A program made the position numbers and the translations under genes. Under the pieces are notes generated by a model, which was given only the letters and a program-made list of their open reading frames with translations, was not told the origin of the DNA and searched no databases. 64,000 bases of DNA, taken from NCBI GenBank assembly GCA_947629005.1, contig CANRCD010000010.1, positions 1-64,000 on the forward strand, written 5' to 3'. Below are positions 44,259 to 63,999 of the stretch, piece after piece (within the stretch, counting starts at the first letter, position 1; each line of letters opens with the position of its first letter). The DNA comes from an uncultured Clostridia bacterium. GTDB lineage: Bacteria > Bacillota > Clostridia > UMGS1883.

Positions 44259-45197
44259 TTACTTGCCCGTGATGTATTTCACGGCATTGCGCACCATAAC
44301 AGCAGCCTCGGCGCGAGAAATTGCTCCATCAGGATTGAACAGGCCGTTACTGAGGCCGTGAACAATTCCCATGCGAGCCAATTCTGTGATCTCCTTGGTC
44401 GCCCAATGATCGACAGTATCAGGGAATACGACGTCCACGGGATCACGCAAAAGGGCCGTCCATGTCAATGGGCCAACGCTACCGTCAACCTCCAGCCCGC
44501 TGTCGGCCTGAAATTTTTTGACGGCTTCAAGGGTAAGAGGCCCGAAAGATCCGTCCACGTCTAAGTCGCTACCCCATACGTTAAGTCGCGTCTGGAGGCG
44601 CTCGACGGCGTTTCCGCTGTCTCCCTCCCGCAATACCGGGGTAGGGTCTTCGGCCGTCGAGCCGGCCAATTTGTCCCAAAAATCGGTGAGCCACAAGGTG
44701 TTTTTCGCGCTGGTTCCGCACCAATAATCAGGGCAACGCTTCCCGGTCACGTCAAAGTGACGGATCACATGTTCGGGGGACACGTTGTATTTTTCCATGA
44801 GCGACTTGGTGAGTTCAATAGCGTTTCCTATCGTGGCCTCCGAGGGGTAAATTCTCCCGTTTTTGCAATCGTCGCAGAGTTCGATTGAAAGGCTGTTTGT
44901 GTTTGTAACAGCGCCATATAACTTACCGCCGCCGGTGCTGGCGCAGTCGGCGTATTTTGAACCTCCAACGGACCACGCCACATAGTTATCCGGGACGCTC
45001 TGCGTCACACTGTCGCTGTCCACGAAATAATGGGCGGACGCTTTCACGGTGTTATTGTGAAAATAATTCCCGTTGCCCTCGTCAGTGTCGCCGTCGTTGG
45101 CCGTGAAATGGATCACGATATATTTTATTTTTGAAGGGTTGCGCTCGGCGCCGTAGTTCGATTTTGAGGCGATGTTCGTTTTAAAAATATAGCTCAT
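44259..45197 (-). CDS. Prophage endolysin: N-acetylmuramoyl-L-alanine amidase with PG-binding and SLH domains
   Basis: This 312-residue lysin cuts the amide bond between muramic acid and the peptide stem. The Amidase_2 domain covers residues 1 to about 170 with zinc ligands His30 (Ile-Val-Ile-His-Phe), His147 (Ile-Arg-His-Phe-Asp-Val) and Cys155 (Lys-Arg-Cys-Pro-Asp). A PG_binding_1 domain lies at about 188-255 and a single S-layer-homology domain at about 256-310 (Phe-Pro-Asp-Thr...Ala-Thr-Lys-Glu-Ile). Its ATG overlaps the holin stop by 4 bases. Use of an SLH domain for wall targeting is unusual in endolysins and suggests a pyruvylated wall polymer in the host. Confidence 0.9.
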   Translation of the reverse strand: MSYIFKTNIASKSNYGAERNPSKIKYIVIHFTANDGDTDEGNGNYFHNNTVKASAHYFVDSDSVTQSVPDNYVAWSVGGSKYADCASTGGGKLYGAVTNTNSLSIELCDDCKNGRIYPSEATIGNAIELTKSLMEKYNVSPEHVIRHFDVTGKRCPDYWCGTSAKNTLWLTDFWDKLAGSTAEDPTPVLREGDSGNAVERLQTRLNVWGSDLDVDGSFGPLTLEAVKKFQADSGLEVDGSVGPLTWTALLRDPVDVVFPDTVDHWATKEITELARMGIVHGLSNGLFNPDGAISRAEAAVMVRNAVKYITGK

Positions 45198-46559: not shown

Positions 46560-49500
46560 TTATATTGAGAAGCATGGGCAGACTCCATACGGCGAGCTAT
46601 TACAGTGGAAGTTCCACGCGTCTGCGGTCTGGACGGAGCCATCGGCAACGACACCGCAGTAACCCCGCTCGGAAGTAACACAAGCTCCGCGAAGCCAGTA
46701 ACTTGAAGAGGCGACCCATTGTCCATCGTGATAAATTTGGTTTTTCCACACATCGCCCTCCCTAACTTCCGAAGTAGTCGTCGGGTCTGTATCTCCCTGA
46801 TGATAAGTCGCGCCTTCAGGCACCGCAAGTCCACGGAACTTCGCCCTGGATTGATTATTTACAAAGAATGAAATTTGATGGCCTTCATATATCCACGGGT
46901 CGGACATAGTGCTCGATATTTCAGCATAAGCGGGTATCCAGATTTTAGCGTCCATAGTTTGAACATCCCCGCTTACACCATCTAAATAATTATTATAGTT
47001 GACACGGCACGACCGAAGCATCGACTGCCACTCATAGGGAAGCGCCGGAAAGACGCGCCCTATCAGCCACTTATACATCTGAGATTCGGGAAAGCCTCCG
47101 GCATTAGCGTTATTTGTTCCGTTCATATAACGCGTGCGCTCTAGTAGCGACGCGCAGATGAAGTCAACAGACGTGTTCTGTTCACCGCCGCCCGAGACGC
47201 GGAAGTTACCCAAACTGGCAACTTCGAAGAGATAGGTCTCGTGGGGCCAGCACACAAGTTGTCTGCATACCGCGTCGCCTAAATCACCCTTCCAAAGCCG
47301 GCAAGAGTAAAGGTCGCCCGTGGCATAGTCGCTATACTGACCGCCTGTAGATTTAGCAGCCCCAAGGATAAGCTCTGCGTCTGTAACAGTGTCAATAGTT
47401 TTCGTCAGTTCCTGGGTTGTGATATTGTCCTCATAAGCGTTGGAAGAATAAACTTGCACGTTGCGGCTTCCTTTAGTGTGTCGCATAACCATAATTTCCC
47501 GGTTTGTCTTTGCGCCGCTGTTAAGGCTGTTCGTTCCCCACTGCATAGATGGGCCGTCATTGTAGCGCAGCTTGAAGCCCATAAAACCCTCGTCCTCAAA
47601 GCAACAGAGCATAGTTTGATTTGCCGTTTCAGCGGTGAACTTTACATCGGTGACAAGGGTCCAAGACGTATCCTCCTCAAATAATTTTATACCTGTGTCA
47701 ATGTGTGTCTTTCCGTCAAACTTAGTTTCCTGGGCTACGAGGTCTTGGTATTCAACATTATTAAAGTCGGGGTCAAATCCAAATGTAATAGCGGCTCGGT
47801 CCTTGATTGTGAAGTATTCAGCCGCCTTACCGCTCTGTCTCACGGCATAAATCTCTGTAGCGGACATATCAGATATGTCCTTGCCGGAAGCGGGCAGACC
47901 TGCCGAATCCCACAGGGCATAAACATCTACATCGCCGTTGATGAAGCCGGTAGACTTGTCCCAGCCCTTGAACAAATAGTAGTTGTATTGGGCTTCCTCC
48001 TCTGTCCTTGTTGGAATGTCGCCCTCGTATACCACCTCAGAGCCGTAATCGACGGTTTTCTCAGACAGTTTAATACCCGGCTGTGCCCACCATGTTACAG
48101 TGTACTGCCTGGGCTTTTCGCTGTAAGCCGCAGCGATAGTTACCGGGGCTGTGATCGGGCCAAGTGAACGATCCCACCCAGAGTAGGTGTAAACGGTTGA
48201 AACACTTGATGGCCTGGTTGGCATCTCAATAAGCTCGGTCGCAACGGGGTCGGGGGCGTTGTCGCCACGGTCAACGTAGCACGAATACAATAACGTTCCG
48301 TCGTAGTTCTCAAAACGCACCTCGTACTGCTGAATATACGAGCCGCAGGTTATTGTCAAATCGTCGCCCCAAATCTTTTTGTAGTGCGCCTCCTTGGACT
48401 GCCGAAGAACCGGCACATAAACCTGACCGGTCAATACGCTGCTCGGCGTATCGTGGGACTGCTCATCGTAGCCGCGCATACCGGCGAGGCGGTCTAATAT
48501 CGCCTCCATCTTGTTTGCTTCCGCGTTCCAGTCAAACTCCGGCTGTCCCTCGACAGTCCAATTTACGCCTAAAATTCTGGCACGGTTCAGGCCGGTTGCC
48601 TTGTCTACAAGGTCGAGCGTGTCTACAGCTGGGCTGTTCTCCACCGTAAGGCTCTGTAGGTTCCCATAATTTTCAAGCGTCAGGTCTGTCAAATACAGCA
48701 GGTTCTTACAGGTCAACGCCGTTATGCCCGGCAGGTGCGCCGTCGCTATCTTGCCGCCCGGCGCGAAGTTTACGCCGGTTATGCCGCTGCCTCCCGCGAG
48801 GAATGTTTCAAGGTTGACACAGCCCGTCAGGTCTATGCTTTGGGTCAGACCGGGGAGGTTCTGTAAATCGAGGTGTTCCAGCAATATGTTGTTGCCTATA
48901 CCGAACTCCGTCATGGCTCCGTTTGAATACTCATCGTCACCGCTGCCAATCTGCAAATCGGTCAGCTTTACCGCGTAGTTGAAATTCGCATAGGAGGGAT
49001 AGAAGTCCGAAACGTCGCCTATGGACTGTATCAGCGAGGCGTTGTACACGTACATTTCGGTATCGCTCAGGTCGTAGCCGGGGTTGGGAATGTTGTAGCT
49101 CTGCCCACGCTTGCCGCGCTGCCGCGAGGTCAAATTACCAAACCGCGTAACTATATACGTGTCCGCATACGGAACGATGTCATAATCGCCCTCGGTGCCG
49201 CTTTCGCCGCGCATAGTGATAACGTCGGCGGACGCTACCGGGCCTACATATTTACTGGAAATATATTTTTCCTGATATACGTTGAACTGCCGCCGCTGGT
49301 GCCGCTTGTTTCCGTGCATCATCGGCAAATATGTGGTTGTGCCGTCCTCCTCGTAGGGCCGGAAATACTTGCGACGCATATCCGCCATCCACAGGCGCTC
49401 GGGCTTTACGTCCTGATAGTCCTCACACATTCTGCGAATTACTTCAGCGGTAAAGGCGTTCTGCTGCTCAAGGTTGCGGTACATCTCCGCAAGCTGGTCA

Positions 49501-52500
49501 TAACAGTTCTCGCGGATAAGTTGCCACAGTCGGCTGTCGTGGGCGTTGAACACCCAAGCGCCATCTATCTGGTCTGTGTCCTCCAAGCCGTAGGTCAGCG
49601 TCAGGCCGCCCTCGTTGTCGTTGCCCATGGCGGTGTCGTGGTCGTAGGCAAAACAGATGTCCCAATGCTCGCCGTCGCTGGTGTGCCAGAACGTATTCTT
49701 AGCGCGGTTATCAATCATACAAAATCTCTCGGTGAAAATGTAGTGGAACAGAGCGCTCTCCAAGACAAGGTGCTGCGGAGCCTCCGCAAGGAAATCCTCG
49801 CTCCTGACGTGTACGACCCAAGTCAAGAACTTTTGCCAACTGTCCTGACAGGCCTTTACCTCTTCCGCCGCGTCCTCATCTCGGACATAGCGGAACTCAA
49901 ACGCTCCGTCGCCGTCCCACAACTCGTGGGTCAAATCGTCCGACAGGAAGCGTCCCTGCTCAGAACCGTTGTTCAGGTTTTCAACAATACATTCCTTCGC
50001 GTTCTCGGGGTCCATGCCCATGGCGTCGTTGTTTTTCTTGCTGTTGCCGAAATCGCCGCAGCCGTAGAAGTGCCACTGACCGTCATTATATACAACGGCG
50101 TTTTCCGTGTCCGTTTCCTGAATGAAAACAACGCAGGGGTGGAATTCCATGGTATCGCGGACGCGGGGGTCGTCAATTCTCGCCTGACGCTTGTAGGGAT
50201 TGTATGTATTGTACCAGTCGGACAGGCGGGAGTTGTTGCAGTTCTCCGAGCTGGCCACGTTCAGCTTGATGTTGAAATACTTTTCGGGTATGCTGTTCTC
50301 GGTCATAGCATACTTGTCGCCAGTGCTGCCGTCGCCGAAGGTGAAACCGCCCTTGAGGTTTATGTCGATATTACGAGCGCTGTCTCCATAATGCTCGGAG
50401 CTGGTACCCTGTCCTTTGTGTGTGCCTTTCGCCGTCCAGTTATCCTCCTTGGCGCGTCCGTTTTTATAAATCATTTGTACTGTGGTGTTGTCAACTTCAT
50501 ATTTCTTGCCCTGCGTAAATACGGGAGCCGATATTTTTATGACGCGTAAATCCGGGCATTTTTCGGCAAGGGTATCCGGATCAAGGCTGCCGGAGGCGTC
50601 CAAAATATCATTGCGGGTATAACGGGCTATCATCTCATTGGCGTTCTTTGCGTCGCAGATAAAGTTATCCAAAATCTCATCGTCCGACAAGCTGGTTTCA
50701 TATACCTTCATGCGGTAAATCCACACATCACAATCCTCGGAGCCTATGGTTATACCCACGGGCTTCGACTGCACGAAACTGTCCGCTTCTCCCGTGCCGT
50801 ACAGCTTTACGCGGGAAGGTATCGCGTCAACATAAGAAATCATTTCCGGGTGGCTGCTGTCGGGCAGAATATTGAACTCCAGCTCAATGAAATTATCCTC
50901 GCAATAGGGGACAGTCAGGTCGTTGGTCTGGGATTTCAGCACAGCTTGCTGTGCGGCCACGGTCAAGCCTATGCCGTCGCTGCCCTTACAGCTTATTGCC
51001 ATGGCGTCGTAGTTGCGGACGTTGGTGGTTTTGAAAATTATCTTTATTTCCTTGCCGGTGGCCTTGGCGTCCCTGTTGAATACCGCGTAGGGGATTGTCG
51101 CCGTCGTTCCGGCCTTGACGCAGAAATATGTATCGCCGTCCGCGTCTATCTGATAGCCGCCGTTTGTCTTGTCGAAGTCGTCTGATACGGTCATGGATAG
51201 GCTGTCGTTAATCTTTAGCCAGTCTGCGGCGGCGTTGGACTTGCCGCTGGGGTTAAAGTCAAATGCCAGCCCCGTTGTTACCGGCTCAACGTCCAAGCTT
51301 AATTCTTCAATGGTCGCGGTTATGGTCTTTTCGGTCTCGCCACAGATGATTTTCAATGTCTTTACACCTGATGTGGTGCTGCGATACGCCCAGGTCTGGG
51401 CCGTGCGTCCTATATCGGACAATTCCGCCGCAGTGGTTTCACCCTCTTTTAACGTCACTGTCGTTGTACGGTTCTGCGGGTCGTAGACGATATATTCAAT
51501 CGGTGCAGTGTTATACTGCGTGGCAGTAAATTCCTGCATACGGCAGCCTATGATGGGCGTGGTTTCCTCCGGGTCTACCCAAATGATGTCCTTGTATAAC
51601 GGATCCGACTGAACGTCAATCCCGTTTATCCTGCCCTTCATATACACCTTTAACAGATGTGCGCCGTGGTCTCTGGCCGTTATGGACAGGGTCTGCTGCC
51701 GCCCGGTGACGTTGGTGGTAATCGAACTAATTTGACTGCCGTCCAGCTCAAATATTACTTCCTTGCTGATATCGCCGTAGGGCGTATATGCGAACAAAAC
51801 ATCGCCGCTGTAGAACGTATTGTCGTCAAACGTGCTTTCAACGCGAAAATCTACAACAGTAATCGTCCACGTCTTTGACGCCATTGCCCCCTCGCTATCG
51901 GTTATGCGCAGCTTGACGGTATTCGCGCCGTTGCGCAGATGCCGGCGTATATCGTAGCTGTTTTCGCCCTGTACAACGGATATATTTGTAGCTACAACGG
52001 TATTGCCGACGCTCCAAGTCGCCGTGCCGTTGCCGGTGGTGTCGCCGCTGCTGTCCACCGATGAAAACCGAAATTTAATTACCGCCGTATCGTCTGTGGA
52101 GAGTACGGCGGTGTTCTCGTTGGTCACACGTTCAATCTTCACCGTGGTTGACGTGCCGCCGCCCCCGCCGCCACCGGTGATTTTAAACTGCGCTTTTGGC
52201 TCTCCGTCCTCAAGCAGCGTGAAGGTTTCGTCCTCATAGGTTGCGTCGTAGTCTTTGCCGGGATTTTTCTCTACATCGGCGACGCGGGCAGTGAGCGCCG
52301 CTATATCCTCCGTGGCCTCACCAACGGAACTAAGGGCGGACTCCGCGCTGGCTTTCGCCGACTGTGCCTCGCTCGCGGCCAACTCAGCGCTATTGCGAGC
52401 GGTTTCGGCAGCACTTCGGGCAGCTTCGGCGGCTTCAGCGGCACTCTCTGACGCTTCAAGCGCTTTACTGGCTATGTCGCCCGCTGCCTGTGCGATTTCC

Positions 52501-52883
52501 GCGACGTATATCGGTTCGCAGTCCTCTATGTCCTCTCCGTCCTGTGTAAAATGTAAGTATCCGGACTCATCGACGCGACCGCCGTTAAAGGCGAGGCCGC
52601 CGGTGTCGATTTCCACGGTTTTGGTCGAGTCGTCCCAGAATGTGATTTTTATACCCTCTGGCACGGAAGTAATACTTTTGACAAGGTTGGGGTACATGCT
52701 TTTTATTGTCTCTTTATTCACATATTCCTCGCTGAGTTTTAGCACTTCCGCTATTTTTTCGGCGACTCGTTGCATTGTGGCGCGGCGCAGGGACTCCACG
52801 CCTTCTTCGGGCTGAGTTATGAGGAAATGGGCGTCATTGCTTGGCGCCGCTTCTTGTACAGCATTAATATTTGTTTGTGCCAT
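46560..52883 (-). CDS. Giant prophage tail-associated protein with CotH-like segment and C-type-lectin-like end
   Basis: The start at 52883 follows AAGGAGTG; a GTG 9 bases earlier is inside that site. The 2107-residue protein has an Ala/Glu/Ser-rich coiled coil (about 128-205), a poly-Gly linker near 235, Ig-like domains (about 245-520) and a long middle region. There Asp1058-Asn-Arg-Ala-Lys-Asn1063 and Phe-Ala-Tyr-Asp1081-His-Asp1083-Thr-Ala-Met-Gly resemble the Asn and Asp-x-Asp active region of CotH protein kinases. A leucine-rich-like stretch (about 1328-1440), InlB-type repeats (about 1525-1645) and a LamG-like domain (about 1732-1890) follow. The end reads Tyr-Trp-Leu-Arg-Gly ... Gly-Val-Cys-Pro-Cys-Phe-Ser-Ile, as in DUF6273 and C-type-lectin folds. 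It is the likely receptor-binding protein. Confidence 0.75.
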   Translation of the reverse strand: MAQTNINAVQEAAPSNDAHFLITQPEEGVESLRRATMQRVAEKIAEVLKLSEEYVNKETIKSMYPNLVKSITSVPEGIKITFWDDSTKTVEIDTGGLAFNGGRVDESGYLHFTQDGEDIEDCEPIYVAEIAQAAGDIASKALEASESAAEAAEAARSAAETARNSAELAASEAQSAKASAESALSSVGEATEDIAALTARVADVEKNPGKDYDATYEDETFTLLEDGEPKAQFKITGGGGGGGTSTTVKIERVTNENTAVLSTDDTAVIKFRFSSVDSSGDTTGNGTATWSVGNTVVATNISVVQGENSYDIRRHLRNGANTVKLRITDSEGAMASKTWTITVVDFRVESTFDDNTFYSGDVLFAYTPYGDISKEVIFELDGSQISSITTNVTGRQQTLSITARDHGAHLLKVYMKGRINGIDVQSDPLYKDIIWVDPEETTPIIGCRMQEFTATQYNTAPIEYIVYDPQNRTTTVTLKEGETTAAELSDIGRTAQTWAYRSTTSGVKTLKIICGETEKTITATIEELSLDVEPVTTGLAFDFNPSGKSNAAADWLKINDSLSMTVSDDFDKTNGGYQIDADGDTYFCVKAGTTATIPYAVFNRDAKATGKEIKIIFKTTNVRNYDAMAISCKGSDGIGLTVAAQQAVLKSQTNDLTVPYCEDNFIELEFNILPDSSHPEMISYVDAIPSRVKLYGTGEADSFVQSKPVGITIGSEDCDVWIYRMKVYETSLSDDEILDNFICDAKNANEMIARYTRNDILDASGSLDPDTLAEKCPDLRVIKISAPVFTQGKKYEVDNTTVQMIYKNGRAKEDNWTAKGTHKGQGTSSEHYGDSARNIDINLKGGFTFGDGSTGDKYAMTENSIPEKYFNIKLNVASSENCNNSRLSDWYNTYNPYKRQARIDDPRVRDTMEFHPCVVFIQETDTENAVVYNDGQWHFYGCGDFGNSKKNNDAMGMDPENAKECIVENLNNGSEQGRFLSDDLTHELWDGDGAFEFRYVRDEDAAEEVKACQDSWQKFLTWVVHVRSEDFLAEAPQHLVLESALFHYIFTERFCMIDNRAKNTFWHTSDGEHWDICFAYDHDTAMGNDNEGGLTLTYGLEDTDQIDGAWVFNAHDSRLWQLIRENCYDQLAEMYRNLEQQNAFTAEVIRRMCEDYQDVKPERLWMADMRRKYFRPYEEDGTTTYLPMMHGNKRHQRRQFNVYQEKYISSKYVGPVASADVITMRGESGTEGDYDIVPYADTYIVTRFGNLTSRQRGKRGQSYNIPNPGYDLSDTEMYVYNASLIQSIGDVSDFYPSYANFNYAVKLTDLQIGSGDDEYSNGAMTEFGIGNNILLEHLDLQNLPGLTQSIDLTGCVNLETFLAGGSGITGVNFAPGGKIATAHLPGITALTCKNLLYLTDLTLENYGNLQSLTVENSPAVDTLDLVDKATGLNRARILGVNWTVEGQPEFDWNAEANKMEAILDRLAGMRGYDEQSHDTPSSVLTGQVYVPVLRQSKEAHYKKIWGDDLTITCGSYIQQYEVRFENYDGTLLYSCYVDRGDNAPDPVATELIEMPTRPSSVSTVYTYSGWDRSLGPITAPVTIAAAYSEKPRQYTVTWWAQPGIKLSEKTVDYGSEVVYEGDIPTRTEEEAQYNYYLFKGWDKSTGFINGDVDVYALWDSAGLPASGKDISDMSATEIYAVRQSGKAAEYFTIKDRAAITFGFDPDFNNVEYQDLVAQETKFDGKTHIDTGIKLFEEDTSWTLVTDVKFTAETANQTMLCCFEDEGFMGFKLRYNDGPSMQWGTNSLNSGAKTNREIMVMRHTKGSRNVQVYSSNAYEDNITTQELTKTIDTVTDAELILGAAKSTGGQYSDYATGDLYSCRLWKGDLGDAVCRQLVCWPHETYLFEVASLGNFRVSGGGEQNTSVDFICASLLERTRYMNGTNNANAGGFPESQMYKWLIGRVFPALPYEWQSMLRSCRVNYNNYLDGVSGDVQTMDAKIWIPAYAEISSTMSDPWIYEGHQISFFVNNQSRAKFRGLAVPEGATYHQGDTDPTTTSEVREGDVWKNQIYHDGQWVASSSYWLRGACVTSERGYCGVVADGSVQTADAWNFHCNSSPYGVCPCFSI

Positions 52884-52913: not shown

Positions 52914-54143
52914 TTATGTCCACCACGCCGTTGGCGGGCTTGTGTTAAACCCTTCCGTTGTTGGCCGTTGTTTAGCTTCGAGAATAGGGGTGCCGTTTGT
53001 GTCCGTTCCCCAGTAAATTATACTTGCTGGCGTGGGCATTGCGCTGGTGTAATGCACTCGGCCGTCGCCGTCGCGGTAGCTGAACGCTATTGCCGAAGCG
53101 GTGCGTTCGCATGTAACTCGCAGCTCGCCACCGAGCGCAAAGGAATTTGAGGAAAAGCGCACGTCGACCGTGTGATTTCTGTCGTTTGGCTGATTTGATA
53201 AATCTAACAACGTGACAGGCGCCCAAAATTCATAGGAGGATAGGTCGAGTGTGGCCCACGTCGACGCTGATTTGTCAAAGGCCGAGGTCTGTGGCGTTAT
53301 GTATGGCATATATAGGAGCGCATTTGCGGCCGCGGCGATTGCGGCCCGCTGCGCGGTTGACACGGGTTTGTTGGCGTCGCTGGTGTTGTCTACATTGCCG
53401 AGTCCAATCTGTGTCTTAGTGACATTATGGGGGTTGTTGGTTGCACTGATATGATGTATCAGTCGCGCGATCGCGTTCCTGATCTTGCCGAGCATAACGC
53501 TGAGAGTTTCGCCGCTGGTTATATTGTTCAAGGGGATTGTCGCAGGATTGCTTTGTTGCGAGCTTGTCAACGCCGCAAAAGTGGGCGTTTGATTGTTGGT
53601 GCTCACGTTCGGCACGTTGCCGAGTCCAATCTGTGTCTTAGTGACATTATGGGGGTTTGTCTCGTTGGCAACGTGGGCGTTGAAGTCCTCCAGCCGGGCA
53701 TAACCTGAATACTCGCCTATCGTGGCGGTTACATGTTCGGCGTCGCCTACGACGATTTCCAGTTTGAAGGTGATCCGTTCGTATGAGCTTGTGCTATACG
53801 CAGGCAAATAAGCCGCATTTTCCCCAGCATTTGCGTAAGCGTATAATATCTCGCCGCCGCCGGGATCATCGGCATATACGCCAAACTCCGTGGCGATTAT
53901 CCCGTGGTCGAGTGCTGCGTTGTCAAAACTTCCTTCCATCTCCACAAGGCCTTCTCCCGGAGTTATCGAATTTATTTTAATATCGACTTCGGGATTTACC
54001 AACGACACGAGAGCTTTATATCTATTGCCCGGATCGGCGCCGGAACCGAGGGCGAGTTTAGTAAAATTGATTGTCCCACCGGCGAGGCCCTTTACAATAA
54101 GGGCGTTGCCGGCGGCCGTCAATTTTAATTTCGGAAAATACAT
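52914..54143 (-). CDS. Tail fibre protein (P2 gpH-like N-terminus)
   Basis: The 409-residue protein starts with a tail-fibre N-terminal domain (DUF3751-like, about residues 1-155) that attaches fibres to the baseplate. Two copies of His-Asn-Val-Thr-Lys-Thr-Gln-Ile-Gly-Leu-Gly-Asn-Val follow at about residues 163 and 237, a repeat typical of trimeric phage fibres. The C-terminal part (about 290-409) is beta-rich and probably forms the tip. AGGAGGAACAG precedes the start. The gene follows gpI and precedes the giant tail protein, the expected fibre position. Confidence 0.85.
   Translation of the reverse strand: MYFPKLKLTAAGNALIVKGLAGGTINFTKLALGSGADPGNRYKALVSLVNPEVDIKINSITPGEGLVEMEGSFDNAALDHGIIATEFGVYADDPGGGEILYAYANAGENAAYLPAYSTSSYERITFKLEIVVGDAEHVTATIGEYSGYARLEDFNAHVANETNPHNVTKTQIGLGNVPNVSTNNQTPTFAALTSSQQSNPATIPLNNITSGETLSVMLGKIRNAIARLIHHISATNNPHNVTKTQIGLGNVDNTSDANKPVSTAQRAAIAAAANALLYMPYITPQTSAFDKSASTWATLDLSSYEFWAPVTLLDLSNQPNDRNHTVDVRFSSNSFALGGELRVTCERTASAIAFSYRDGDGRVHYTSAMPTPASIIYWGTDTNGTPILEAKQRPTTEGFNTSPPTAWWT
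53395..53657. repeat. 41-bp perfect direct repeat within the tail fibre gene
   Basis: The 41 bases at 53395-53435 and 53617-53657 are identical and encode the repeated Thr-Lys-Thr-Gln-Ile-Gly-Leu-Gly-Asn-Val motif. Identity at the DNA level, including third positions, suggests recent duplication or recombination, and recombination between copies would delete 222 bp in frame. Confidence 0.9.
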
Positions 54144-54158: not shown

Positions 54159-54803
54159 TTAATATTCTGTTAGGACGTTGCCGAGTTCGTCGCACAAGGT
54201 TTCTCCCAATTCGTTCACGAGCCAGTCAAATTCAAATTCTTCTTTGTCCATAGTGTTGGCGTACTCGTACTCATGGACGGTCGCAAATCCTACAAACAGA
54301 TCGGTTTCTTCGGTCGTGTACATTTCGATCCCATCGAGGTGAGCGCTGGCACGTTTAACATATTCAATGGCCTTGTGAACTTTTGCAAAATCGAAGGCGT
54401 TTAAAGCGTTGAGGTTGACGCGAAAATGCCCCGGTTCGCCGCCGTATTCGTACCACTCTAATATCTCGGGTACTACGCCATAGCCGGCTTTTACTGCTTC
54501 AACTACGGCCCATTTTGTACCTGATTTCTCTTTGAGGAGGACGGCGGCCTTGATTGTTGCCCGTTTATTTTCCAATTCCATGCCCGTGTCGTACCATTCG
54601 ACGCTCATCTCCCACGCCATTTCGTCCAATTCCGGGCCGGTCATGTTGTCGATTTGATCCCATTCGCGTAGCCGGGGTATATCAGCAGCGAGTGCTCGAA
54701 AAATATCGTTCAAGGCCTTTGCAAAGGCTCTATTTGCCTCATTGTCGCGCATAAAGACAGGAAGCAGCCGCAATATATCAACGTCCGACAGCTTCATTCC
54801 CAC
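54159..54803 (-). CDS. Tail protein I (P2 gpI-like)
   Basis: The 214-residue protein carries the gpI pattern near the N-terminus: Ser-Asp-Val-Asp-Ile-Leu-Arg-Leu-Leu-Pro, then Leu-Arg-Glu-Trp-Asp, Glu-Leu-Asp-Glu-Met-Ala-Trp and the Val-Glu-Trp-Tyr-Asp segment. In P2, gpI helps assemble the baseplate with gpJ. The GTG at 54803 was chosen because AGGGAGG stands 8 bases upstream. It follows gpJ by 3 bases. Confidence 0.88.
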   Translation of the reverse strand: MGMKLSDVDILRLLPVFMRDNEANRAFAKALNDIFRALAADIPRLREWDQIDNMTGPELDEMAWEMSVEWYDTGMELENKRATIKAAVLLKEKSGTKWAVVEAVKAGYGVVPEILEWYEYGGEPGHFRVNLNALNAFDFAKVHKAIEYVKRASAHLDGIEMYTTEETDLFVGFATVHEYEYANTMDKEEFEFDWLVNELGETLCDELGNVLTEY

Positions 54804-54806
54804 GCT

Positions 54807-55934
54807 TTACCCCTCCCTTATTTCGTGTTTTACCGTCAACTTGCCGGAAAACTTCGCTACGTCGGCCTTGCCGAGCGCGGTATACGTTGGCGCAGTCAAA
54901 GTCACGCGGCTGGCTCCCGGCAGGCCATCGACAACGCCCTCCGGCGAAAGGATCAGCTTTCGCAAATAGTCAGGGTTTATATCGCGATCCAGCGCCGTAT
55001 CTTGCCATGCTATGTATTGATCTATCGCGCCGCCCGATCCCTCAATCGCCTTTATGCAGTCGGCCTCGTCGGCGAGGGTGGTGTAATATGTTAGGTCTAT
55101 ATCATACTCGGTCACATTCGGCGCTTTGGCCGTTACATGATCGGTTAGGGGGCGCACGTCGTCGGCGTTTACACTTGTAAGAACCTTTTGCAGAACGCCC
55201 TCGTCGGGAATACCGCCGCCATGCAACAGTACCGTAATTACTACCTCACAGGCTGAGGGCGAGTCCACGGCCACGTCTGCGATTGTGCTATCGGCAGCAA
55301 GGGCCCAATATTTGTATGACGCGATTGATCCGGCCGTCGTGGTCTTATTCGGGGCATTGCGTATTCTTTCCCGGTAGGGTTCGTCCTCCTCACGGTCGCT
55401 GCCGCCATAGGTCACGTCGATGTTACTCACGCCGTCTATGTATGGCACGAGGTCCACAAGCGTGTTGACGCCGCCGGCAGGGATCCCGTTATATGTGCCG
55501 CCGCCGCTGTCTGCCGTGGCTGGCACGTCAATATATGCCCCTCCAACCGTCAATACAGCCGTCCGGTCAGTTGCAAAGTAACGGACAAAATCGCCGGTCG
55601 CTCTCGTTCCGGCCGGGATCGTTACGTTGACGCCGACAGCCTCGTTGAGTGTGAAGCGTAGGGTTGTTTTTGCGGCCGATGGTTGCATACGGGGAACGCC
55701 TCGACTTTCGCCGATTGCGTCCAGTACCTCGGCGCGAGCATACCGCAATAATTTTTGACGGCAGGCGTCATTAACGGTATTATAAACCGTGACAACAACA
55801 TTGCTTAGGGCCTCGCCATATATGCGCCGCTCGTCGCCGGGGTATAGAGGCTCGGCAACATCATTTTCTAACGATTTTAATATTGCCGCAAGAATTTCCC
55901 CGGCGTTGGTTTCGATAAAATTTAATTCGCTCAT
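54807..55934 (-). CDS. Baseplate wedge protein J
   Basis: The 375-residue protein belongs to the baseplate J-like family: an N-terminal helical part, then Val-Thr-Ile-Pro-Ala-Gly-Thr-Arg-Ala near residue 103, the Gly-Gly-Thr-Tyr-Asn-Gly-Ile-Pro-Ala-Gly turn, and Glu-Pro-Tyr-Arg-Glu-Arg-Ile-Arg in the middle. It connects the wedge to the sheath initiation ring in contractile tails. Its ATG overlaps the gpW/gp25 stop by 4 bases. Confidence 0.92.
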   Translation of the reverse strand: MSELNFIETNAGEILAAILKSLENDVAEPLYPGDERRIYGEALSNVVVTVYNTVNDACRQKLLRYARAEVLDAIGESRGVPRMQPSAAKTTLRFTLNEAVGVNVTIPAGTRATGDFVRYFATDRTAVLTVGGAYIDVPATADSGGGTYNGIPAGGVNTLVDLVPYIDGVSNIDVTYGGSDREEDEPYRERIRNAPNKTTTAGSIASYKYWALAADSTIADVAVDSPSACEVVITVLLHGGGIPDEGVLQKVLTSVNADDVRPLTDHVTAKAPNVTEYDIDLTYYTTLADEADCIKAIEGSGGAIDQYIAWQDTALDRDINPDYLRKLILSPEGVVDGLPGASRVTLTAPTYTALGKADVAKFSGKLTVKHEIREG

Positions 55935-58178: not shown

Positions 58179-58411
58179 GACGTGCCACCTCCCTGTCGGC
58201 GCCATGGCGGGAGCGTTTCGCGGGTTTCGGCATTTTCGACGATAGGCAGCCGGAGGGAGGCGCCGGCCTCGAAAATTAACACGTCTGCATAATTGGGGTT
58301 AAAGTCTATAATGTAGTGAGCGAGGGTTTCCTCGCCGTACATTTCGAGGGCCAAGGCGTCGAACGTGTCGCCTTCGCGAGTGATATATTTTTTGTAGCCC
58401 TTAACGCGCAT
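58175..58411 (-). CDS. Tail protein X (LysM-like)
   Basis: The 78-residue protein is a single LysM-like domain: Ile-Thr-Arg-Glu-Gly-Asp-Thr-Phe-Asp-Ala-Leu-Ala-Leu near the N-terminus and Ala-Gly-Ala-Ser-Leu-Arg-Leu-Pro at the end, as in P2 gpX. It links the tube end to the hub. The start overlaps the tape-measure stop by 11 bases, and the stop overlaps the gpD start by 4. Confidence 0.88.
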   Translation of the reverse strand: MRVKGYKKYITREGDTFDALALEMYGEETLAHYIIDFNPNYADVLIFEAGASLRLPIVENAETRETLPPWRRQGGGTS

Positions 58412-61400
58412 ACTCCGACGCCTCCCTCATCTCCAAAAATTCGTCGAGCCAGTCGATAAATTCTGCCTCGTGGTTTCTGATCTGCTCCATAAACTCGTCG
58501 TCGGGTTTGTTGCCGGTGCTATTGATAACAGGCGCCCACGTCAAGCCTGACATGTCGTAGTATATAATCATGCTGTTGCTCTCGCTTATGCCGCCCAGAG
58601 AGAAGTCGTCAAGGGTGAGTAGCTCGCCGGCCTTGCGGGTTAGGGCCCTGTCGTCAAATTTTCCGGGATCGCCCGGCTGTTTAGAAGGTTCGGGAAAGTC
58701 AATGTCGGGCAATTCCACGACTACGTTCACGGCGTTGTCAATATTGCCGTTATTTATCCCTGCCGCCCTGTTTATGGCCGTTTGAAGTATGTCGGCCAGT
58801 TTATCCCACAGGAGATCAAGGGGAAGCACTGCCTCGGCGCCAGCCTCGCCGACGCCTTGCAAGCCGTTGGGCGTGTTGAATATTGTCGGTTCGTCGAATA
58901 TGCCGCCGACGGCGTTCCAGCTTACGCTGAATTTCGGAACACTCACCTTGCCTCCATCACCATAGGGTACGGAGTTGGTCGTCACGCTTATAACCGGCAG
59001 CCGAGGCTTTGGTATTGTTATCACCATGTTGGAAAATGCCGATTTAATGGTGCTAACAGCTTTTTGCGCCCATGACGTGAGCGTGCTGCTTATGCTGTTT
59101 AAGGCGTTAGTTGCGTTGGTTTCCGCTTTCGTCCAGCCGCTGTCAAGGGCGGCGTTCATGTTGTCTGAAAGTGATTTAGTCGCCGAGGTAACGGCTGCAC
59201 TACCGCTGGTGATCCCGGAAGCGATTGCTTGCGCTCCAGAGGCGCCGGCGGTCTGCATGTTGGCCGTTAAGCCGGTGGTGTCAACTGTTAGCGCGGTCGT
59301 GTCAATCGTACTTGTTGCCACCGCCGTGTTGAGCCCGGAGATCAGGGCTGTGCCCCCCGCGGTGCCCGCCGTCTGCATGTTGGCTGTGAGCGTTGCCTCG
59401 TCGAGCCCTATAGTGGACGTGTCCACTGTTGCGCCGTTCAAAGATGTTGTTAGACCTGTTGTGAATGACTGGCCGCTCATTGTTCCGGCTGCCGTTGCAG
59501 ACGCGGTATCGATTGATGAAAACGCGCTTGACGACACGCTGGTGGCGGCGTTTTGCGCTGCGCTGGCTCCTGAGCTTATGCCGTCAGCATAGGCCGTCGT
59601 TGTTTTTGTCGCTGCTGACGCCGCTTCGCTCGATCCGTCGCTGTCGCCAAACCACCCAAACACTGTGTCAACTATGCCGCCAATAAAATCAATGGCGCCT
59701 TTGAATACGCCCACAATAGCGTCCCATATACCCGTAAAAACGCTCTTGACGCCTTCCCACGCTTGTTCCCAGTTGCCCGTAAACACGCCAACAAGGAAGT
59801 CGATCAAGCCTCCGAGACATTGCGTTAATCCGTCAATAATCGGGGTTATTGCATTTATCGCCGCTCCGAAAACGCCCGTTAAAATCGTTGCCACAGCTTG
59901 CAATACCGGCATGAGCGGTTGTAATACGGCGGTTATTAACGTCGTTAATATGTTTATCAACGGCGTTATCGCTGCCATTATAAGGCTAAGGATTGAGCCA
60001 ATTAACGAGGTAAACAGGCTTAGGATCGGTTGCAAAAGCCCGATTAGTAAGTTAAGGATTGGCGTCAAAAGGTTCAATATTTGCACGAGTGCCGGGAGTA
60101 CGGCCTGCACGATCTGAATTATGGGCGGGAGCAGCATTTGAATAAGCTGTACCACTATCGGCAGGATTGAGGAAATAATAACTTGGAGCACCGGTGTGAT
60201 AAGTTGAAGTAACTGGATCAGAGCCGGCACTATTGACATGACGATCTCAATAATCGGGGGTATTAGTTCACCCAAGAGAGTCCCTGCCATTTCTGTGATA
60301 ACAGGCACGAGCTCTTGAAGTAACGGGGTGATTGCCGGAACGAGTTGCTCGATCAACGGCTGAATTTGTGCCGTCATATCCTGAATAATTGGGATTAGGC
60401 TTTCCATAAGGTCGCCCACGACAGGCATTAACGCATTGATTGAGTCAAACATGGTCGAGGCCAAAGGTTCGAGGGCGACCTGCGCTTTTTGCTTGAATAC
60501 TTGCAGGCGTTCGGCAAAGTCGTATGTGTCCTCGGCCGCACCGCCGATTGTTTCGCTGCTTCTCTCCAATTCGGCGGTGAGGGCGGCGACGTCAACGGTT
60601 CCTGCCCTTATTGCTGCCGCCATAGTTGACGCGGCGCGGGTGCCGAATATTTCCGTAGCAATAGACATCGCCTCGGTCATATCGGCTGCGTTTTTAATTT
60701 TGTCGGTATAAACGGTGAGTCCTTCGGAAGCGCTGAGGCCTTCCTTGGCAAATGAACTGACTGATTTTTTCATGGCGCCGAGCACCTCGGAGGTGTTGAC
60801 GCCGGCCTTGTCGAGTTGTCCGATCAAGGCCACTGATTGCTCGAAATTATATCCGAGTTCTTGAAGTTGCGGCCCGAATTGCTGAGTTTTGCTCATCAGA
60901 TCGGAAAAGCCAACGCCGGTGCTTTGGGAGGCTCTAAAAACGTAGTCCATGGCGTCGCCCATGTTTTCGGCGTCGATTTTCCAGATTTGAAGCGCTTGGC
61001 TTGACTCCTCGATCACGCTGTCGAGGTTCTCGTCGAGCATGTCGGCAACTTGGATCGCCTTTTTTGAAACATTTTGAAGCGCCGGGCCGGTGAGTCCAAG
61101 TCTGGTGTTATAGTCTGCAATCGCCTTGCTTGCGTCGCCCATAGTAGTTGGGACACTGGAATATACGGCGTCAAAGTCTGCCATGAGCCCGTTTAAGGCT
61201 TCGCCGGTGGCTCCTGTGCCAATTCGTATAGCGTCACTCGCAGCGTCAAACTGGCTACCGAGGTCTGTCAAATATTTCCCGGCCTCGATTACCGCCTTGC
61301 CTGTTGCTATTGCAATGCCGCCGGCGGCTGCGGCAACGCCCAACGCCTTAACATTGATCCCGCCTAATTTGCCGGTTACGTCCTCAATGGATTTTTGCAA

Positions 61401-61457
61401 CGTCGGGCTTATTGCGCCGCTGATTTCAAGGACTGTTTGCAGGGTTTTTCCGGCCAT
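58401..61457 (-). CDS. Tail tape measure protein (TP901 type)
   Basis: The 1018-residue protein sets the tail length. Its first part (about 60-330) is a TP901-like core with Tyr-Val-Phe-Arg-Ala-Ser-Gln-Ser-Thr-Gly. Residues about 346-532 form a long hydrophobic array of short Pro/Ile/Leu/Gln-rich repeats such as Leu-Leu-Pro-Pro-Ile-Ile-Gln-Ile-Val. A Trp-rich helix and a Thr/Ser/Ala-rich stretch follow, and the end is charged. CGGAGGTGAGAGC precedes the ATG and also contains the stop of the frameshift extension of the upstream gene. Confidence 0.94.
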   Translation of the reverse strand: MAGKTLQTVLEISGAISPTLQKSIEDVTGKLGGINVKALGVAAAAGGIAIATGKAVIEAGKYLTDLGSQFDAASDAIRIGTGATGEALNGLMADFDAVYSSVPTTMGDASKAIADYNTRLGLTGPALQNVSKKAIQVADMLDENLDSVIEESSQALQIWKIDAENMGDAMDYVFRASQSTGVGFSDLMSKTQQFGPQLQELGYNFEQSVALIGQLDKAGVNTSEVLGAMKKSVSSFAKEGLSASEGLTVYTDKIKNAADMTEAMSIATEIFGTRAASTMAAAIRAGTVDVAALTAELERSSETIGGAAEDTYDFAERLQVFKQKAQVALEPLASTMFDSINALMPVVGDLMESLIPIIQDMTAQIQPLIEQLVPAITPLLQELVPVITEMAGTLLGELIPPIIEIVMSIVPALIQLLQLITPVLQVIISSILPIVVQLIQMLLPPIIQIVQAVLPALVQILNLLTPILNLLIGLLQPILSLFTSLIGSILSLIMAAITPLINILTTLITAVLQPLMPVLQAVATILTGVFGAAINAITPIIDGLTQCLGGLIDFLVGVFTGNWEQAWEGVKSVFTGIWDAIVGVFKGAIDFIGGIVDTVFGWFGDSDGSSEAASAATKTTTAYADGISSGASAAQNAATSVSSSAFSSIDTASATAAGTMSGQSFTTGLTTSLNGATVDTSTIGLDEATLTANMQTAGTAGGTALISGLNTAVATSTIDTTALTVDTTGLTANMQTAGASGAQAIASGITSGSAAVTSATKSLSDNMNAALDSGWTKAETNATNALNSISSTLTSWAQKAVSTIKSAFSNMVITIPKPRLPVISVTTNSVPYGDGGKVSVPKFSVSWNAVGGIFDEPTIFNTPNGLQGVGEAGAEAVLPLDLLWDKLADILQTAINRAAGINNGNIDNAVNVVVELPDIDFPEPSKQPGDPGKFDDRALTRKAGELLTLDDFSLGGISESNSMIIYYDMSGLTWAPVINSTGNKPDDEFMEQIRNHEAEFIDWLDEFLEMREASEYAR

Positions 61458-62580: not shown

Positions 62581-63999
62581 TTATTCGCTAAAGAAGGCGG
62601 CAAAGCCCTCGTCGGTATAACGCACGCGGACCTTTGCGGACTTCATGGGCGGGGTGTTAGTCGCTGCTATATCCCAAACAAAGTCACCGTTCACCATGTC
62701 AGACACGGGGTTTTCGGTTTCGAGAAAAGCAACAGTCGGGGTGCCAATTATGGCTCCCATGCCGTGAAGGACGTCGAGCTTTTCCCTCTCACGGTTCAGT
62801 ATGGTGTCACGGTCGTTGGGGCTCAGGGGGGCGTCAATCTTTGTGCCGTGTTCGATCTGGAAATTATTCGTAATATACATTAACATGCGAATATTCACGT
62901 CGAAAATAGCGCGGGCGTCCATGTTTCCACCGTAGGAATAGGCGGCCGTATGCGGGCCCCAAAGAACCCACTGACCGGCCCAAAATACCGCTGTGGTTAT
63001 GCCTTTCTCGTTTAGGCTGTTGGCGGTCTGCTGGTCAAATCCTTTGTTTTTCGACTCGGTGCCAAAATACTGTTGCACCGCCATGATCTCCTTGTTCGAG
63101 GGACTCTCAAAGGGAATATTTCTGTGCGATGTGTCCACGCGCAGCATGGTGGCCGTTGCGACAGTCGAGAGGTGGAACACGCGGCCGCTGCCGTCCGTCA
63201 CTTTGGGCCAGTACACTTTTGACAGCTCGCTCGTGTAGCCGTTATCCTCTTTCCATTCGATTGCCTTCTCGATCGTGGCGTTGTCCGCGATCGGTATGTC
63301 GGCATTTACAAAACCGTCCCAATGGCCGTTAAGTTTCTGCACCGTGCTTACCATGGCGGCGTAAACGGCGGGCTTATCGCTCCAGCCGGGGGCGGCCAGT
63401 ATGTCAAGGACAGCGTTGTGGTACTGATACAGCAGGCTGAACGCATGAAGGCCCGTATACTCGCCCTCGGCGGTTGCCTGACCGATAATGTTCGCGGCCT
63501 CGATCTTCGAGGTGTCCACTTTGTAATATGTAGCCTGCAAGGACGCGCCAGCTTCCGTGAGCAAAGTAACTATTACGGAGTGTTTGAGATAGTTATAGCT
63601 TAGGGTATAGTCCGTACCCTCCACCTTATCCGCAATCGCGAAGGTGTCAAGGATAATGTCAGCGTCCTCAAATTCGGCCCTCTTGTTGGTGAAAGTGAGC
63701 TCCTGCGTAGTCTGTTCGGTGGCCCTGTGAGTGTCGGGGTCCAGCACGTTGACAACGAAAATTGGGCCAACATTGCCCACGGTGTTATCGAAATGCTCGG
63801 CGAACGCTTCGCAAAGCGTGTACCTTTCCCAATCGTCGGAGTAGCCGAGTTTTTTCTCAACGTCGCTCATGTTGGCGACCTTGACCGGCATGTTGACAAT
63901 TCCCTTGTCAGCATAGCCGCGAATTAAATTGACCGGGGCCGTGCCTATATAGGCCGCCACAACGCCGGACTGCGTGGCGTCTGCCACGCTGCTTTCGGC
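62581..63999 (-). CDS. Tail sheath protein (5' end outside window)
   Basis: This frame is open to the window edge; a GTG at 63987 has no ribosome binding site, so the true start lies beyond base 64000. About 473 residues are visible. They show the sheath pattern of contractile-tail phages: Val-Ala-Ala-Tyr-Ile-Gly-Thr-Ala-Pro-Val-Asn-Leu near the start, a propeller of beta strands, Phe-Trp-Ala-Gly-Gln-Trp-Val-Leu-Trp-Gly-Pro-His-Thr-Ala and an Asp-Val-Asn-Ile-Arg-Met segment near the C-terminal domain. The sheath contracts to drive the tube through the envelope. Confidence 0.92.
   Translation of the reverse strand, partial: AESSVADATQSGVVAAYIGTAPVNLIRGYADKGIVNMPVKVANMSDVEKKLGYSDDWERYTLCEAFAEHFDNTVGNVGPIFVVNVLDPDTHRATEQTTQELTFTNKRAEFEDADIILDTFAIADKVEGTDYTLSYNYLKHSVIVTLLTEAGASLQATYYKVDTSKIEAANIIGQATAEGEYTGLHAFSLLYQYHNAVLDILAAPGWSDKPAVYAAMVSTVQKLNGHWDGFVNADIPIADNATIEKAIEWKEDNGYTSELSKVYWPKVTDGSGRVFHLSTVATATMLRVDTSHRNIPFESPSNKEIMAVQQYFGTESKNKGFDQQTANSLNEKGITTAVFWAGQWVLWGPHTAAYSYGGNMDARAIFDVNIRMLMYITNNFQIEHGTKIDAPLSPNDRDTILNREREKLDVLHGMGAIIGTPTVAFLETENPVSDMVNGDFVWDIAATNTPPMKSAKVRVRYTDEGFAAFFSE

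Follow-up and report, generated by a model that had tools for sequence, protein, structure and literature searches.

A CotH-type kinase-fold domain in a predicted tail adhesin of a Clostridia contractile-tail prophage

The window analyzed here is a 64,000-nucleotide stretch of an uncultured Clostridia bacterium (assembly GCA_947629005.1, contig CANRCD010000010.1, positions 1 to 64,000). It carries a prophage that encodes a sheath, a tape measure, and a baseplate, together with a multidomain protein of 2107 residues (Table 1). The gene for this protein sits between a tail-fibre gene and an endolysin gene, within the tail module and adjoining the baseplate and fibre genes. Sequence and gene context identify its product as an adhesin of the contractile tail, predicted to be present in the virion and to bind the host. 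The open reading frame starts with the ATG at 52883, with a second open start, a GTG, lying three codons before it. The N-terminal coiled-coil region has a weak match to the tail-fibre family PHROG 2636 (E 2.8e-4). Pfam detects no laminin-G/ConA-like domain at about 535-745 in the window protein and finds Laminin_G_3 at the corresponding place in two homologues, L006 and L009. The leucine-rich-repeat-like segment is proposed on the basis of an LRR match in L009.

Table 1. Features of the adhesin gene, its product, and its neighbours in the window.
Feature	Residues	Coordinates	Strand	Basis or remark
Adhesin gene, whole		46560..52883	minus	2107 aa; multidomain tail adhesin, CotH-type domain central
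Ala/Glu-rich probable coiled coil, N-terminal stalk	130-205	52269..52496	minus	sequence
Probable laminin-G/ConA-like lectin domain	~535-745	50649..51281	minus	directly before CotH domain; presumed from homologues
CotH kinase-fold domain	778-1215	49239..50552	minus	AlphaFold2, VIA-align, Foldseek, Pfam
QGTSS motif	825-829	50397..50411	minus	probable place of RGxSS motif of cellular CotH; position match by eye
K873	873	50265..50267	minus	97/97; in search pattern, partly ascertained
N884	884	50232..50234	minus	97/97, outside patterns; probably N of CotH RN motif, matched by eye
K949	949	50037..50039	minus	97/97; included in a search pattern
E968	968	49980..49982	minus	97/97; outside all search patterns
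Catalytic loop DNRAKN	1058-1063	49695..49712	minus	D1058 = CotH D228; profile-profile alignment with cellular CotH
Hairpin loop, split site in relatives	1069-1073	49665..49679	minus	fused in window; comparison with relatives
YDHDTAMG	1080-1087	49623..49646	minus	D1081 = CotH D251 metal Asp; Y1080 at place of WD tryptophan; alignment, conservation
Leucine-rich-repeat-like segment	~1245-1510	48354..49151	minus	putative; sequence pattern
DUF6273 domain, C-type-lectin fold, probable receptor-binding end	1885-2107	46563..47231	minus	Pfam, AlphaFold2, VIA-align
Place of DGR variable repeat in relatives	last 45	46563..46697	minus	VR/TR in relatives
Tail-fibre gene, upstream neighbour		52914..54143	minus	PHROG 7037, E 9e-34
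Endolysin (amidase), downstream neighbour		44259..45197	minus	PHROG 1493, E 3e-42

The initial annotation, made from the letters of the DNA, had described a CotH-like segment in a tail protein, and the tail-gene context, Pfam, and fold comparison all bear this out. The AlphaFold2 model of residues 778-1215 (pLDDT 93.2, pTM 0.91) has the CotH variant of the protein-kinase fold. VIA-align superimposes this model on Bacillus cereus CotH (5jd9) with Z 30.4 and an rmsd of 3.4 over 336 of 358 residues, and the next-best chain reaches a Z of only 9.8. Foldseek also returns CotH (E 3e-11), with no other family near. The kinase-like outcome that the annotation had proposed to look for by structure prediction was therefore found. 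At the level of profiles, Pfam CotH (PF08757) scores 22.8 bits on the full-length protein (E 7.8e-5), just under the cut-off of 23.8, which is exceeded by segment 760-1240 taken alone (25.8 bits) and in the genome search (26.2 bits). The same profile matches 62 of 97 homologous segments (best E 1.7e-11), and a profile-profile alignment of the phage family with cellular CotH gives E 1.6e-6. Neither the segment nor an 11-row profile matched anything in PDB sequence searches; CotH was reached only via fold comparison and the Pfam profile. Single cellular CotH sequences used as queries did not find the phage domain, for which a 12-row profile was needed. Profile, modeled fold, and catalytic residues together assign the domain to the CotH kinase family (PF08757).

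With solved CotH (5jd9, 5jda), the phage domain shares the fold, the catalytic Asp, the Asn at +5, and the metal Asp at +23. It differs in being embedded in a 2107-residue tail adhesin, in its sequence (about 12% identity), in the QGTSS motif of the N-lobe, and in that its activity is predicted. The annotation had singled out DNRAKN followed some 20 residues later by YDHDTAMG; the order is real, although the spacing is 16 residues, and the Trp and Phe it saw around the motifs are F1065, W1066, and W1074. The distance from D1058 to N1063 is identical in 5jd9, and D1081 lies 23 residues beyond D1058, as in CotH. The CotH variants D228Q and D251A are inactive (PMC7821199).

Conservation of the Lys, Asn, and Asp residues, another check put forward by the annotation, points the same way. 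D1058 and N1063 are invariant in the 11 proteins of a smaller set and in 97 homologues, in which K873 and K949 are also fully conserved. Because these four residues belonged to the patterns used in the homologue search, their complete conservation is partly by construction, and the argument is carried by the sequences found with plain tblastn and by residues outside the patterns. D1081 and D1083 are present in 97/97 homologues, as are N884, E968, and Y1080, and the Q, G, and last S of QGTSS are also invariant, at a mean column identity of 28%. Since D1081, D1083, N884, E968, and Y1080 were not used in the search, their invariance argues for a chemical role and not only a packing role. Reuse of the fold for adhesion only, which the annotation had offered as an option, is less likely because the active site is invariant. 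Two positions appear to depart from cellular CotH in a hand alignment. In CotH, Y142 and W245 sandwich the adenine, and at the place of W245 the phage domain seems to have Tyr (Y1080, 97/97). The conserved Glu of the N-lobe YLxxE motif seems to be Asn, followed at +2 by an invariant Lys. These replacements suggest that nucleotide handling may differ from that of CotH.

At the C-terminus, the DUF6273 domain (Pfam, 33.6 bits) is modeled with a pLDDT of 93.1. Its best VIA-align match is 9qa6 (Z 14.8), followed by middling values for the Treponema variable protein 2y3c (Z 6.2) and C-type lectins (about 5-6.5), and the model has a C-type-lectin fold. VR/TR pairs are present in about 40 relatives. 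No RVT_1 match occurs in the genome, which is 97% complete, and no second copy of the gene's 3' end exists in the window or the genome. Without a reverse transcriptase and a template repeat, the window copy is not DGR-diversified.

The annotation gave the impression that the arrangement was unprecedented, which does not hold. CotH was listed among DGR targets (Ye 2014, PMC4159848), and phages are known to encode fusions of CotH domains with hypervariable C-type lectins, which were called "currently unstudied" (Benler 2021, PMC8008677). Those proteins have an identical architecture, with a central CotH domain and a C-terminal C-type-lectin fold, and the window differs from them in that its genome lacks a reverse transcriptase and a template repeat. 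Relatives are found on more than 300 viral contigs. One of them is the DGR-target tail fibre of hankyphage p00 (BK010646; PMC6199706, PMC12135933), which is homologous over 356-1488, including the catalytic residues, at about 23% identity. Unlike the window genome, hankyphage carries a DGR, which mutates the end of the tail fibre (PMC12135933). Pfam does not detect a CotH domain in the hankyphage protein, and a term search for "kinase" in PMC6199706 and PMC12135933 found none. Phage G gp353 and crAss-like cr272_1, both uncharacterised, share the predicted fold and conserved motifs at about 20% identity. The same is true of siphovirus and myovirus entries in BFVD named "CotH kinase protein" and "Spore coat protein H kinase fold".

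The corresponding gene of 57 distinct relatives consists of two cistrons, with the break in the hairpin between the catalytic Asp/Asn and the metal Asp. Hespellia stercorisuis DSM 15480 and Faecalicatena orotica are examples of hosts of this split form. A strong Shine-Dalgarno sequence precedes 48/49 second starts of split genes and occurs at the corresponding site in 1/140 fused genes. In the other 8 of the 57 cases, the script found no ATG, which may reflect other start codons or assembly errors. Each half retains its share of the active site, and purifying selection on both is strong (dN/dS 0.01-0.07 in comparisons with unsaturated synonymous sites). With the split inside the active site, a working domain would need to be rebuilt from two chains. 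The natural split and the selection on both halves make it probable that the CotH-type domain has a second role as a fibre joint. As far as the literature search reached, a split within the CotH domain is new. The three possible frame relations between the cistrons occur in 32, 13, and 12 cases, whereas the strong Shine-Dalgarno sequence and, where found, the ATG are constant; programmed frameshifting was rejected on these grounds. Stop-codon read-through was rejected on the same observations, and both TGA and TAA are used. Three relatives (L049, L056, and L093) have a single in-frame TAG elsewhere in the domain and may come from TAG-recoding phages. Parsimony gives two gains of the split and one re-fusion; an independent double origin was not upheld, as a single origin is compatible with the AU test (p 0.08).

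The best guess for the function of the domain is that it modifies the tail in an ATP-dependent manner while the tail is being assembled. In this proposal, the N-terminal stalk would anchor the adhesin to the baseplate, the C-terminal lectin-fold domain would bind the host, and the CotH-family kinase domain, with its active site intact, would lie between the two ends. The domain would take Mg-ATP in the host cytoplasm while tails are produced and may phosphorylate either its own adhesin chain or a tail protein next to it, much as CotH phosphorylates coat proteins in spore assembly. A second, structural role would be to join the proximal part of the fibre to the distal part. That the protein is a tail adhesin with an active CotH-type kinase of this kind, which also acts as a fibre joint, has about an even chance of being correct. 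A more specific version, less likely than not, makes the active kinase itself the coupling joint. In the large branch with split genes, catalysis, and perhaps maturation of the fibre, would then take place only after the base and receptor-binding halves dock, with the window protein representing the one-piece form.

A joint stabilized by nucleotide and metal without catalysis, in which Mg and nucleotide would glue the two lobes or two split proteins together, is possible to a similarly limited degree. A split at the active-site hairpin makes the domain a two-chain junction, long fibres need joints, and Mg/AMP is present in the 5jda crystal of CotH. However, D1058, K1062, and N1063 are retained along with the metal Asp, and pseudokinases typically lose one of the catalytic-loop or metal residues. 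The annotation had suggested a kinase that modifies a surface protein of the spore or cell as the phage attaches. In this reading an extracellular kinase would phosphorylate a protein, or else a glycan, on the host surface. The probable receptor-binding end on the same polypeptide and the secreted CotH proteins of related bacteria (L174) would fit this role, but it is unlikely, as ATP is present where the tail is made and has no evident source outside the cell. Moreover, the window offers no hint of a surface substrate, and the lectin domain already accounts for surface binding. Kinase-fold enzymes of other chemistry exist, as in AMPylation by SelO, and the N-lobe residues seem unlike those of cellular CotH. 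A transferase performing AMPylation or another nucleotide-dependent modification of the fibre is nonetheless improbable, with no positive sign of another product. A chance resemblance without a kinase fold, which the low identity to CotH and the empty PDB searches might suggest, is scarcely credible against the confident model, its Z of 30 to CotH, the profile-profile alignment, and the Pfam matches in relatives.

Protein kinases that form part of phage virions have received little study, and many gut phages carry members of this family. Because the family includes hankyphage, which is inducible in Bacteroides laboratory strains, the presence of working kinases in phage tails is directly testable. 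A kinase domain split between its catalytic loop and its metal Asp across dozens of phages is also a natural experiment on domain assembly. Split CotH domains would yield ready-made two-piece kinases and a modular means of coupling tail fibres.

The 2107-residue tail adhesin belongs to a prophage in a host genome assembled to 2.0 Mb and 97% completeness. Its gene lies at the customary site for receptor-binding tail proteins of a contractile-tail prophage (table). The tail-fibre gene upstream holds a 44-base direct repeat (window 53392-53435 and 53614-53657; repeated NPHNVTKTQIGLGNV motif). Two other large genes lie in the window. The first (24901-32214, minus strand) combines GH43, alpha-L-arabinofuranosidase, and laminin-G domains in one 2437-residue product, probably a large host enzyme degrading polysaccharide. 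The second (1458-9023) encodes a 2521-residue protein with Calx-beta domains and no other family match.

Genes around the CotH-containing tail gene, and examples of the split form in relatives
Feature	Coordinates	Strand	Place in gene-strand order or remark
Tail sheath	62581-63987		first
Tape measure	58401-61457		after sheath
Baseplate wedge	54807-55934		after tape measure
Another tail protein	54159-54803		after baseplate wedge
Tail fibre	52914-54143		directly before CotH tail gene
CotH-containing tail gene, 2107 residues	46560-52883	minus
Amidase endolysin	44259-45197		after CotH tail gene and small genes
Split-gene examples (loci of relatives)	L134:7951-7963, L140:7930-7950, L071:7950-7975		about 54 other loci

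The initial annotation proposed a CotH-like kinase segment in the middle of this protein, and the motifs on which it drew are at residues 1058-1063 (DNRAKN) and 1080-1087 (YDHDTAMG). Fold prediction bears the proposal out. The AlphaFold2 model of residues 760-1240, built from 97 sequences, has a mean pLDDT of 93.2 and a pTM of 0.91, and a Foldseek search of the PDB with it returned only two CotH entries at E < 0.001 (3e-11). VIA-align superposes model residues 19-456 (protein 778-1215) on CotH with Z 30.4 and rmsd 3.4, covering 336 of 358 CotH residues; the runners-up, HipA, a bacterial Ser/Thr kinase, and Fam20, score Z < 10. The Pfam CotH family is matched by the whole protein (E 7.8e-5), by segment 760-1240 (25.8 bits, above the curated cut-off of 23.8), and by 62 of 97 homologous segments. 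Among models of viral proteins, that of phage G gp353 has the same fold, as do those of crAss-like phages and several further phage proteins, some of which already bear the name CotH.

The active site is conserved. Profile-profile comparison with 12 cellular CotH proteins (E 1.6e-6) matches the D1058/N1063/D1081 region to their catalytic region, and the Asp-Asn and Asp-Asp distances of the solved CotH sequence (5 and 23) recur identically in the window protein. CotH has equivalents of PKA D166, N171, and D184 (PMC12189002), and substitution D228Q or D251A abolishes its activity (PMC7821199). D1058, N1063, D1081, and D1083 are unchanged in 11 of 11 proteins at 21-67% identity, a set collected by tblastn or by patterns without the catalytic motifs. 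Across 97 sequences, Q825, G826, N838, K873, S879, N884, K949, E968, N972, K1062, Y1080, and N1090 are also invariant. Because D1058, N1063, K873, and K949 were contained in search patterns used to gather part of the relatives, the conservation argument relies on the off-pattern residues and the 11-protein set. The residue preceding the metal Asp is Tyr in all 97 sequences, whereas it is Trp in crAss-like cr272_1 and in CotH, where it forms part of the adenine sandwich. The N-lobe match, aligned by hand, is less clear.

Profile searches returned 310 relatives from viral contigs and 102 from genomes (80 kept from each), with hosts in Bacillota, Bacteroidota, and Synergistota. In the host's family, one genome (G013) encodes a secreted stand-alone CotH with phage-type motifs (locus L174; 23% identity to a phage domain), whose sequence links phage and cellular forms; the phage domain may derive from it, or it from the phage domain. 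The window protein's C-terminal domain is predicted with high confidence, and its model has a C-type-lectin fold, matching a Treponema variable protein at Z 6.2 and an IgA peptidase domain at Z 14.8. CotH is listed among target domains of diversity-generating reverse-transcriptase systems (DGRs) (PMC4159848), and its pairing with a hypervariable lectin in phages has been mentioned as an occasional find that is "currently unstudied" (PMC8008677). To this group the window protein adds a further member.

A DGR-type reverse transcriptase lies nearby in 43 fetched loci. In about 40, the CotH gene has a variable repeat close to its 3' end that departs from the template nearly always at adenines. The nearest relatives of the window C-terminal domain (L094, L021, L095, L025, and L022) are DGR targets; in the window's own genome, neither a reverse transcriptase nor a second copy (template repeat) was found. 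The tail fibre of hankyphage undergoes DGR mutagenesis (PMC12135933), and the target has been described as lacking similarity to characterised proteins (PMC6199706). In Bacteroides hankyphage p00, where a reverse transcriptase and both a variable and a template repeat are annotated, the target gene (L006:4585-11322) is homologous to window protein residues 356-1488 and encodes a CotH-type domain whose catalytic residues are intact; a Pfam search of it gives no CotH match. The literature searched, with incomplete coverage and including the hankyphage papers, yielded no mention of a CotH domain in this fibre, of family-wide active-site conservation, or of the split form described below. Four loci (L072, L075, L082, and L090) have diverged second copies of the gene's 3' end downstream of the CotH gene, with no adenine bias and no reverse transcriptase found close by; these are perhaps cassettes for exchanging the receptor-binding end. 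Three otherwise intact CotH tail genes contain a single in-frame TAG (L049:4794, L056:7832, and L093:7574) and are candidates for TAG-recoding phages.

In many relatives the CotH domain is spread over two reading frames, broken at one constant place past the catalytic loop (VDSRAKNMFPSFMG) and ahead of YDxDT. In the AlphaFold2 model this is a hairpin loop between two strands, matching residues 1069-1073. With a targeted scan included, the split form is counted at 64 loci, of which 57 are distinct. An ATG usually opens the second frame, whose product typically begins M-K-K-K-I-V-F-L-P-Y-D-F-D, and a strong Shine-Dalgarno precedes this codon in 48 of the 49 split cases where an ATG start was found; among distinct fused genes, 1 of 140 has both at this position. 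In 27 split cases the stop and start codons share a four-base ATGA; elsewhere the gap between them reaches up to 135 bases. These starts, the varying spacing, and the occurrence of all three frame relations indicate two translated genes; the frame relations and Shine-Dalgarno-led starts rule out frameshifting and read-through. Both halves retain their catalytic residues, and purifying selection on each is strong (dN/dS 0.01-0.07 in non-saturated comparisons). Parsimony favours two origins of the split, but a single origin is not rejected in the AU test. A fused relative nested within the split group (L131:4454-11896) is a re-fusion, its linker (GGPVTQEGRKMDRKV) resembling an old ribosome site and start codon, now translated. 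A short extra frame of about 28 codons lies between the halves at L137:7960-8050 (also L207), and at L132 the second gene carries the DGR variable repeat.

On the favoured reading, by analogy with CotH and the spore coat, the domain would use ATP to modify the fibre or neighbouring proteins, probably by phosphorylating them, and would also act as a joint. The main rival is a purely structural joint with bound nucleotide. Action on the host surface during attachment is possible, but has no evident ATP source; the producing cell is preferred as the site of modification because ATP is plentiful there. In the split phages, the CotH domain is the most likely place where the two proteins dock, because no other way of attaching the receptor-binding half is evident. 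Docking there would make the domain a joint.
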